Shown in pieces: positions 21,001-22,526 of a DNA stretch of 42,500 nucleotides. The position numbers were made by a program, and so were the translations under genes. Where the stretch lies: contig NZ_RBWX01000007.1 of NCBI RefSeq assembly GCF_003634215.1, positions 1 to 42,500 on the forward strand, given 5' to 3'. The DNA comes from Sphingosinicella microcystinivorans (lineage in GTDB: Bacteria; Pseudomonadota; Alphaproteobacteria; Sphingomonadales; Sphingomonadaceae). The notes beneath the pieces are model-generated. The model was given only the letters and a program-made list of their open reading frames with translations, did no database searches and was not told the origin of the DNA. The stretch's first letter is position 1; each line of letters begins with the position of its first letter.

Positions 21001-21048
21001 TGTCCCATATGAGGACACATGATGCAGAGCCTGTCCCGTTTTGGGACG
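21001..21048 (+). promoter_or_regulatory. Two TGTCC-N7-GGAC dyads, candidate sigma-54 activator sites
   Basis: TGTCC-N7-GGACA lies at 21001-21017, centre 21009. TGTCC-N7-GGACG lies at 21032-21048, centre 21040. The centres are 31 bp apart, about three helical turns, so both sites face the same side. They lie about 90 and 120 bp upstream of the transcription start predicted from the sigma-54 promoter, a typical position for enhancer-binding proteins. The cognate activator is unknown. Confidence 0.65.
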
Positions 21049-21102: not shown

Positions 21103-21118
21103 TGGCACGGCGATTGCT
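21103..21118 (+). promoter_or_regulatory. Sigma-54 (RpoN) promoter
   Basis: TGGCACGGCGATTGCT matches the RpoN consensus TGGCACG-N4-TTGC[A/T], with the invariant GG (21104-21105) and GC (21116-21117) separated by exactly 10 bases. The expected start of transcription is near 21129. Two dyads upstream support it. Confidence 0.8.
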
Positions 21119-21128
21119 GTTCTCTGGA

Positions 21129-21255
21129 CAGCCGCCGGCGCCACGGCCCCGGCAAAGGCGGCGACCCAACCTGGCGGCGGTCACAGACCCCGACAGCCTC
21201 CAGGCGAAAACCCTGAGTTGAGCGGCGATGCCACGGCCCCGGTATCGCCGCTTTT
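21129..21255 (+). ncRNA. Candidate sigma-54-dependent structured RNA (sRNA or leader)
   Basis: The stretch from the predicted start to the terminator folds by eye into three hairpins. The first has arms GCCGCC (21131-21136) and GGCGGC (21157-21162). The second has CCTGG (21170-21174) and CCAGG (21200-21204), with CCTCC beside the right arm. The third is the terminator stem 21221-21229/21244-21252. The same 13-nt sequence GCCACGGCCCCGG occurs at 21140-21152 and 21230-21242, both times in the loop of a hairpin. Twin identical C-rich loops suggest a regulatory RNA that pairs with G-rich ribosome-binding sites; alternatively it is an attenuated leader of the hydroxylase genes at 21307. No known RNA family is recognised. 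Confidence 0.5.
21221..21255 (+). terminator. Intrinsic terminator
   Basis: AGCGGCGAT (21221-21229) pairs perfectly with ATCGCCGCT (21244-21252) and is followed by TTTT and, after four bases, another TTTT. It ends transcripts from the sigma-54 promoter or gapR, or attenuates reading into the 2Fe-2S subunit gene. Confidence 0.75.
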
Positions 21256-21306
21256 CTCGTTTTGGGCGGCTTGGCGCATCGCATCCGCCCCTCTAATATC
21301 CCGTCC

Positions 21307-21768
21307 ATGCAAATCAGCCTGACCGTTAACGGATCCCTCCGCGAACTCGACGTGGAACCGACGATGCTGCTCGTCGAAATCCTGCGCGATCACCTGCGCC
21401 TCACGGGTACGCATATCGGTTGCGACACGAGCCAGTGCGGCGCGTGCAACGTGCTCATGGATGGCAAGGCGGTGAAGAGCTGCACGGTGATCGCCGGGCA
21501 GGCGGACGGTGCCAGCGTGACGACGATCGAAGGGCTGGGCGCGGATGGCGCGCTGCACCCGATGCAGGCGGCGTTCCGCGAGGCGCACGGGTTGCAGTGC
21601 GGCTTCTGCACGCCGGGCATGGTGATCGCGGGAATCGCGATCGCCGGGCGGCACGGGCCGGACGTGAACGAGGAAACCATCCGCCACGACCTTGAAGGGA
21701 ATCTCTGCCGCTGCACGGGCTACACGAATATCGTGAAGGCGATCCGCGCCGGGGCTGCGGCGCTGTGA
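21307..21768 (+). CDS. 2Fe-2S subunit of a molybdenum hydroxylase (xanthine dehydrogenase family)
   Basis: 153-residue electron-transfer subunit with two 2Fe-2S domains. The plant-ferredoxin-like cluster is ligated by Cys39, Cys44, Cys47 and Cys59 (GCDTSQCGACNV...KSC). The helical second cluster uses Cys98, Cys101, Cys134 and Cys136 (CGFCTPGM...CRCTGYTNI). Length and order match CoxS/IorA/QorS small subunits. The ATG at 21307 is chosen because homologues start with a short strand of the MQISLTVNG type. Its stop overlaps the GTG start of the FAD subunit, so translation is coupled. The molybdopterin subunit is not adjacent. Confidence 0.94.
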   Translation: MQISLTVNGSLRELDVEPTMLLVEILRDHLRLTGTHIGCDTSQCGACNVLMDGKAVKSCTVIAGQADGASVTTIEGLGADGALHPMQAAFREAHGLQCGFCTPGMVIAGIAIAGRHGPDVNEETIRHDLEGNLCRCTGYTNIVKAIRAGAAAL

Positions 21769-22526
21769 CCGGCTATCATCGTCCAGCGACACTTGATGAA
21801 GCGGCAGCGCTTGCCGCAACGGGCGGCGATATCGCCTACCTCGCGGGCGGCCATACGTTGATCCCGGCAATGAAATCGCGGCTGCGCGCGCCCGATGCGC
21901 TCGTCGATCTCGCGCGCGTTCCGGGCCTTTCGGGCGTATCGCGCGAGGGCGAGCGTGTTTGGATCGGCGCGATGACGCGCCACGCCGAAGTTGCGAAGAG
22001 CGCCCCGATCGCGGCGTTGGCGCGCCTCGCGGGCGGCATCGGCGATCCGCAGGTGCGGGAGCGCGGCACGCTCGGCGGCAGCGTTGCGAACAACGATCCG
22101 GCAGCTGACTATCCGGCAGCGGTGCTGGGGCTGGATGCCGTGATCGAAACAAACCGCGGATCTCACGCCGCGGATGATTTTTTCCTGGGCATGTTCGCGA
22201 CCGCTCTCGAAGAGGTTGAGATCGTCACGCGCATCGGCTTCCGCGTGCCGCAGGCGGCGGCCTACGCGAAGTTCGCGCATCCGGCCTCGCGCTATGCGCT
22301 TATCGGCGTTTTCGCCGCTCGGTTCGTAGATGGCGCGCGCGTTGCCGTGACCGGCGCGGGGCCAGGCGTGTTCCGCTGGACGGAAGCGGAAGCTGCGATT
22401 GACGCGGGTGCCGCGCTTCCGGAGCTTGCGCCCGACGATCTCAATTCCGATATCCACGCCGGCGCCGAATACCGCGCGCATCTTGCCCGCGTGATGCTGC
22501 GCCGCGCACTGGGAGACATGGCATGA
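21765..22526 (+). CDS. FAD-binding subunit of a molybdenum hydroxylase (CoxM-like)
   Basis: 253 residues of the PCMH-type flavin domain found as medium subunit in CO dehydrogenase/xanthine dehydrogenase-like enzymes. [14 protein letters not shown] binds the FAD pyrophosphate and [15 protein letters not shown] is the second flavin signature. It passes electrons between the 2Fe-2S subunit and an acceptor. The GTG start (21765) overlaps the upstream TGA as GTGA, and its own TGA overlaps the ATG of the YbjQ-like gene as ATGA. No large catalytic subunit follows, so the third partner must be encoded elsewhere or is missing. Confidence 0.93.

Follow-up and report, generated by a model that had tools for sequence, protein, structure and literature searches.

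The small RNA sX13 of Xanthomonas, of about 115 nt, is described as forming three stable stems, each with a C-rich apical loop (4C, 4C and 5C), and as repressing mRNAs through G-rich motifs near their starts in a manner that does not need Hfq (PMC3771888). The RNA analysed here resembles sX13 in its three hairpins with C-rich loops, and the behaviour of sX13 is the nearest described (PMC3771888). The present RNA differs from sX13 in its longer fixed loop motif with an invariant A and G and in its sigma-54 control. No sign of common descent of the two RNAs was seen, and their likeness is one of functional kind.

CrcZ is a sigma-54-dependent small RNA whose repeats are unpaired CA motifs. CrcZ and CrcY of Pseudomonas and Azotobacter are similar to the present RNA in their repeated motifs, and in having a dependence on sigma-54 and a dedicated NtrC-family activator (CbrB) of the kind predicted here. 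The repeats of CrcZ are the CA motifs, whereas those of the present RNA are hairpin loops, and the RNAs belong to different lineages.

CcsR1 (RF02791) and ar7 (RF02342) are also proteobacterial hairpin small RNAs, to the covariance models of which the present RNA bears a weak resemblance. In a relaxed Rfam search of the region, ar7, CcsR1, narK, Xoo2 and Scr3202 scored 14.5 to 22.7 bits, whereas 43.2 to 65.3 bits are needed, and all five were rejected; the further families that this search returned were likewise far short of their thresholds. CcsR1 reached 14.5 of the 65.3 bits needed and has the signature CCUCCUCCC, whereas the present RNA is of the GGCCCC type; ar7 reached 19.2 of 60 bits; and the narK RNA (RF03032) reached 22.7 of 43.2 bits at 21104–21164, where it is mostly the sigma-54 promoter that is matched. 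The RF03032 model starts with letters similar to the -24/-12 elements of sigma-54 promoters (GGCaCA-N5-UUGCU), and some of the signal of this family may come from promoter DNA and not from RNA. At the gathering thresholds, tRNA is the sole Rfam match in the window, which is the whole stretch of 42,500 nucleotides that was analysed, and the loci of four relatives gave nothing at threshold, in agreement with an earlier note on this DNA that recognised no existing RNA family.

The RNA is of a known general kind, and its combination of features was not found described in the literature searched. In the same literature, outside which most subscription papers fell, no small RNA study on Sphingosinicella or Pacificimonas was found. 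New here is an activator-like TGTSCC-N5-GGSACA site, positioned at the promoters of the RNA and ahead of one NtrC-family regulator. The locus holds a clearly delimited sigma-54 small RNA that has been seen to date in two genera; its activator is predicted, and evolution has mapped which positions of its loop are invariant and which are free. It is a good test case for gene control by repeated RNA loops, and with it one can test the general question of whether C-rich multi-loop RNAs work through a protein or by base-pairing to 4G ribosome-binding sites.

The predicted small RNA gene

The candidate gene and its parts are positioned in the window as follows.

21103–21118, plus strand: sigma-54 promoter TGGCACG-N4-TTGCT, an exact match; TGGCAC-N5-TTGC precedes nine of nine copies
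21129–21258, plus strand: small RNA gene from predicted start to T-rich tail, about 125–130 nt; 93.1% invariant positions, fold z −3.83
21131–21162, plus strand: hairpin 1, with loop ACGGCCCC at 21143–21150
21170–21204, plus strand: hairpin 2, with variant loop ACAGACCCC at 21183–21191
21205–21219, plus strand: linker, 15 of 15 positions invariant across four genus genomes
21220–21258, plus strand: hairpin 3 and T-rich tail forming the terminator, with loop ACGGCCCC at 21233–21240 and covariation across two genera

The element was found in nine copies in eight genomes of two genera, both of which belong to Sphingosinicellaceae. Named carriers are Sphingosinicella soli DSM 17328, the Sphingosinicella MAG MCMED-G19, Pacificimonas flava and P. 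aurantium; the four are apparently among the eight carrier genomes (G001, G002, G236 and G127, in this order) and add no copies to the count.

The earlier note had proposed a sigma-54-dependent small RNA of about 125 nt with repeated target-binding loops, situated between a sigma-54 start and a T-tract terminator. In a pattern match of the window, TGGCACG-N4-TTGC at 21103–21117 is an exact -24/-12 match, and its retention before all nine copies supports the sigma-54 promoter. From the position of this promoter, transcription is predicted to start near 21129. A scan of the region identified a terminator-like hairpin at 21220–21253 with a T-rich tail, a result that is weak by itself, as shuffles of the region yield a mean of 1.3 such sites; the covariation of hairpin 3 across the two genera corroborates the terminator. 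The 130 nt of 21129–21258 fold at −64.7 kcal/mol (z −3.83), a stability equalled by none of 200 shuffles. It is very probable, judging from sequence comparison, that the sigma-54 small RNA gene at 21129–21258 is real. Conservation and covariation uphold the gene, promoter, ends and structure of the proposed RNA, and the role of the loops in target binding is at most plausible.

Three hairpins with a common C-rich loop

The 13-mer GCCACGGCCCCGG occurs exactly at 21140–21152 and 21230–21242 and in no other place in the window, as had been noted before, and its double occurrence arose in none of 100 dinucleotide shuffles. The two copies do belong to different hairpins, but the loop is not formed by the whole 13-mer. 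In the predicted fold, only eight of its bases, ACGGCCCC at 21143–21150 and 21233–21240, remain unpaired; GCC and GG on either side of them pair to form the tops of the stems. The middle hairpin, at 21170–21204, has the 9-base loop ACAGACCCC (21183–21191) with the closing pairs UC/GA. ACAGACCCC is a degenerate variant of the ACGGCCCC-type loop, and the RNA has three such loops, not two; the third, variant copy had been overlooked in the earlier count. The sequence CCTCC at 21197–21201, which the earlier note had pointed out beside the middle stem, has four of its five bases paired in the predicted fold and thus does not form an exposed anti-Shine-Dalgarno element.

A census of loops across the nine copies was based on 26 script-recognised hairpins with loops of 7–9 bases, 25 of which have CCCC and were counted. 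The one left out, which has eight bases and is without CCCC, belongs to the extra hairpin of G127. The second hairpins of both G010 copies, which have shorter closing stems, are absent from the census, and the motif is present there by sequence. All 25 counted loops have A as the first base, G ahead of the C tract, CCCC, and a closing C-G pair; the pair next to the closing one is C-G in 17 loops and U-A in eight. Loop sizes range from seven to nine bases and are mostly eight, 14 of the 25 loops are exactly ACGGCCCC, and the general form can be written as YC-[A N N G .. CCCC]-GR. As in sX13, several hairpins carry a CCCC loop, three in each copy. Because the loop is fixed while the stems change, it is probably the working part of the RNA.

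Conservation and covariation

In the four-genome alignment of the genus, 93.1% of the positions of the transcript are invariant, compared with 26%–71% in the blocks upstream of the promoter. Invariance rises from 37% in the block that precedes the promoter to 69% within it, 80% between the -12 element and the start, and 93% in the transcript. Downstream, it amounts to 75% in a 12-base spacer, 48% in the promoter-like site of the next gene, and 68% in the first 19 bases of that gene. Between the genera, most of the sequence is altered and the hairpins are kept, and every copy folds with the motif hairpins. The Pacificimonas-type copies have the motif on largely different stems, and the long ones among them have an additional hairpin inserted between the first and the second.

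Hairpin 3, compared in eight distinct rows from two genera, is paired in 96 of 96 pair cells, as against 82% in shuffles. It contains 21 double-change cells, compared with 7.3 in shuffles, and has a covariation score of 0.67, compared with 0.26; when the partner strand is slid by one column, pairing falls to 26–30%. The number of pairs with double changes is six, which was reached by 88 of 500 shuffles and is not unusual. The top three pairs of hairpin 1 provide weaker evidence (21 of 21 cells paired, three double changes), and hairpin 2, the alignment of which was misregistered, was left out of the cross-genus counts. The earlier note had named a lack of compensatory changes in relatives as evidence against the RNA; such changes are present, in the 21 double-change cells of hairpin 3.

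Conservation of a coding pattern alone had been named there as well, and it did not occur. The locus could in principle be a short coding stretch, or its repeat a coincidence, since short open frames are common in GC-rich DNA and the four genus copies have a common 13-codon open stretch that runs beyond their end. However, no open reading frame of the plus strand is common to the nine copies, the longest being of 12–57 codons and unlike in sequence, and hairpin 2 of G003 contains a 1-base indel. The changes keep the pairs, and the exact double 13-mer was absent from all 100 shuffles. A coding or chance origin is extremely improbable.

Neighbouring genes

Two features follow the terminator.

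21271–21299, plus strand: putative promoter TTGGCG-N17-TAATAT, which would serve the next gene separately; the form TTGGCS-N17-TA is present in six of eight genomes
21307–21768, plus strand: next gene, encoding the [2Fe-2S] subunit of a molybdenum hydroxylase of the CoxS type; NCBIfam matches, all below equivalog cut-offs

The same CoxS-type gene is positioned downstream of all nine copies, whereas the upstream neighbour differs by genus, being GapR-like in the Sphingosinicella-type genomes and an aminotransferase-like gene in Pacificimonas. This arrangement is what would be expected if the element were a 5' leader or attenuator of the CoxS-type operon, with hairpin 3 as a conditional terminator. 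Several observations make such a leader quite improbable. The TTGGCS-N17-TA promoter-like site is beyond the terminator in six of eight genomes, although the standard promoter scan scored nothing at 21271–21299 (8 of 12 matches, with a threshold of 9). Among the 30 closest coxS loci, the 22 that are non-carriers lack the sigma-54 site by the pattern used, the upstream DNA of some of them being ended by a contig end. In G010 (L043:741–1520), two complete diverged units are arranged in tandem, and each of them is equipped with a sigma-54 promoter, an upstream site and a terminator hairpin. A free RNA rather than a leader is favoured by these comparisons, and the CoxS-type gene is regarded as a neighbour outside the RNA.

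At 21307–22526 of the window, genes for CoxS/CoxM-type [2Fe-2S] and FAD subunits are found together with no evident large-subunit gene beside them, and their order is the same in the Pacificimonas loci.

Upstream sites and candidate regulator

Upstream of the promoter, the window contains two activator-like palindromes.

21001–21017, no strand assigned: distal activator-like palindrome TGTCCC-N5-AGGACA, 11 of 12 consensus positions
21032–21048, no strand assigned: proximal activator-like palindrome TGTCCC-N5-GGGACG, 11 of 12, 31 bases from the distal one; 71% of positions invariant in the genus

All nine copies have a TGTSCC-N5-GGSACA site, matching at 10–12 of 12 positions, between −92 and −103 relative to the -24 element, and six of the nine have a second one, matching at 9 to 11, at −69 to −71. 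The consensus was derived from these same promoters, and the site scores are not independent of it. The background in a 400-kb sample is 42 sites of at least 10 of 12 in 399,680 positions, one of which, at 12, is a site beside rpoC. By exact pattern, the full consensus is present at the promoter of the RNA in two of eight genomes (G188 and G236).

The genome encodes seven strong sigma-54 activator domains, one of which belongs to an NtrC-family response regulator with a matching upstream site. This candidate, which may be TacA-like, remains under every NCBIfam cut-off shown, the best match being ntrC with 412 bits against 558.6. A site of 11 of 12 lies 52–55 bases ahead of the start of the regulator in all five genomes of the genus, including G004, which did not show the RNA. 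Of the four Pacificimonas-type genomes, two have a site scoring 10 or 11 of 12 about 150 bases ahead of the regulator, and the other two are without it. Counting against this choice, matches at 10 or 11 of 12 positions also occur near further activator genes: the 11 of 12 site at L111 lies past the gene end, and the 10 of 12 sites at L115, L116 and L117 are not all placed relative to the gene start. The NtrC-family regulator with the upstream TGTSCC-N5-GGSACA site is probably the activator of the small RNA.

Sigma-54-like sites number 17 in the genome and three in the control, and many of the 17 precede genes that, from the reading of their open frames, are flagellar or PEP-CTERM-like. The other 16 sites were rejected as one regulon with the RNA: none has an activator site of at least 11 of 12, and one has a site of 10. 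Six of the 17 are located within 18.3 kb, in an apparent flagellar gene cluster (G000:C3:403283–421580).

In three genus genomes (L007:1480–1680, in the region of G000:C1:490058, and L108 and L109), a perfect TGTCCC-N5-GGGACA is positioned directly behind a sigma-54-like TGGCACG-N4-[GA]TGCT. The rpoC-side site is placed between rpoC, as identified from its open reading frame, and a small conserved membrane-like open reading frame of about 47 codons. The predicted activator of the RNA may act here on a second target.

Proposed action and possible targets

In the proposed mechanism, the NtrC-family response regulator would bind the upstream TGTSCC-N5-GGSACA sites and activate transcription by sigma-54 RNA polymerase at the -24/-12 elements. 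The product would be a separately transcribed, trans-acting small RNA that ends at hairpin 3, and each of its three hairpins would display a YC-[A N N G .. CCCC]-GR loop on a freely changing stem. Through their exposed CCCC tracts, the loops would base-pair in several mRNAs with GGGG Shine-Dalgarno sequences, or with G-runs close to them, and so repress translation, and the presence of three loops would give avidity or several targets. Comparison of the genomes supports the gene, promoter, upstream sites, hairpins and invariant loop; that the RNA is transcribed, which protein activates it and everything about its targets are inferred. That pairing with G-rich mRNA sites is the main action appears evenly balanced. 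The whole model, of an activator-controlled sigma-54 small RNA with CCCC loops pairing with G-rich mRNA sites, is the preferred explanation and is proposed tentatively, as a possibility slightly short of such balance.

Ribosome-binding sites were counted for the 299 genes called by a crude gene caller in a 442.5-kb sample, which is about 10% of the genome. Between −15 and −6 of these genes, GGGG was counted 53 times, compared with about six times per 5-base bin further upstream. GGAG occurs 71 times at the same positions, a peak that is partly built in, as the choice of starts favours GGA-type Shine-Dalgarno sequences. The longer loop complements GGGGC and GGGGCC are not enriched at the ribosome-binding sites of this sample. 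Given a peak of GGGG and none of GGGGC or GGGGCC, CCCC could cap a common ribosome-binding form, and nothing longer is supported. The earlier suggestion that the loops bind Shine-Dalgarno sequences is at most plausible: GGGG is a frequent form in the sample, whereas an enrichment of the longer complements is not seen.

Pairing of CCCC does not account for the A and G that are invariant in the loop, and these two bases agree better with a defined fold of the loop, or with a protein, than with simple pairing. Alternatively, this sigma-54 small RNA might act as a sponge, its repeated octaloop hairpin being the site of a titrated RNA-binding protein. CrcZ titrates Hfq/Crc and RsmZ titrates CsrA; CsrA-titrating RNAs have GGA in hairpin loops, and ANTAR-binding RNAs have tandem hexaloops with A1 and G4. 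A fixed loop repeated three times on interchangeable stems, the invariance of A, G and the closing C-G pair in addition to CCCC, and the restriction of the counted loops to 7–9 bases are all consistent with recognition by a protein. CsrA is an unlikely partner, however, as none of the 25 counted loops contains GGA, and a CsrA-titrating RNA was rejected on the same count. An ANTAR-binding tandem hexaloop RNA was also rejected: A1 and mostly G4 are present, but the loops are of 7–9 bases, and ANTAR proteins (PF03861) were matched in one of eight carrier genomes and in none of 14 control genomes. Such hairpins elsewhere in the 442.5-kb sample are not clearly in excess, with five found, one of which is this RNA, compared with 0–4 for altered loops. 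A protein sponge is possible on this evidence, and the less expected action.

In its fullest form, the protein reading would make YC-[A N N G .. CCCC]-GR a new and transplantable RNA recognition module, present three times in each RNA on free stems and read by a dedicated RNA-binding protein that the NtrC-family system controls by titration, which is conceivable but doubtful. In a narrower version, the loop would adopt a definite internal fold in which CCCC is displayed for pairing. The anatomy is wholly common to the pairing and sponge readings, which differ only in the last step. Kissing of loops through GGCC was rejected, as six of the 25 counted loops are without GGCC.

Searches for further copies

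In the Sphingosinicella-type genus, the element is present in four of six genomes. For the two negative genomes, completeness is 83% and 78%, and the downstream gene finds its best matches in them at only about 1e-32, so that their assemblies may lack the region. The Pacificimonas-type genus has five copies in four genomes (G010, G127, G188 and G236), which are the ones among the matches listed. BLAST gave matches in five of 59 genomes, four of them of the genus and one with a distant 28-base match in a different setting.

The model searches were run under stricter filters that lose weak matches. With model R1, six of 298 family genomes were matched, and G010 and G188, which were later positive, were missed. 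With model R2 and E up to 0.01, matches were found in 56 of 397 family genomes, the eight known carriers scoring 114–138 bits and the next 37. Eleven of the weaker R2 loci were inspected; none has a promoter plus loop, and they look like ordinary terminators. No convincing match in any further genus was found in the contig collection, the pattern scan of the order or the model searches of the family, and no relative in the plasmid collection, searches that a much diverged relative could escape.

The pattern scan of the order gave matches in 28 of 396 genomes, and those in G000, G002 and G010 are the element. The others were judged to be chance from their sequence letters and not locus by locus, and the reversed-pattern control gave 15 matches. 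In the scan of the contig collection, nine stretches were found, four of which are the element and five of which were judged on inspection to be chance. Two chance pattern matches, at L021:5214–5435 and L024:3968–4205, resemble CRISPR-type arrays with a repeat unit containing CACGGCCCCG.
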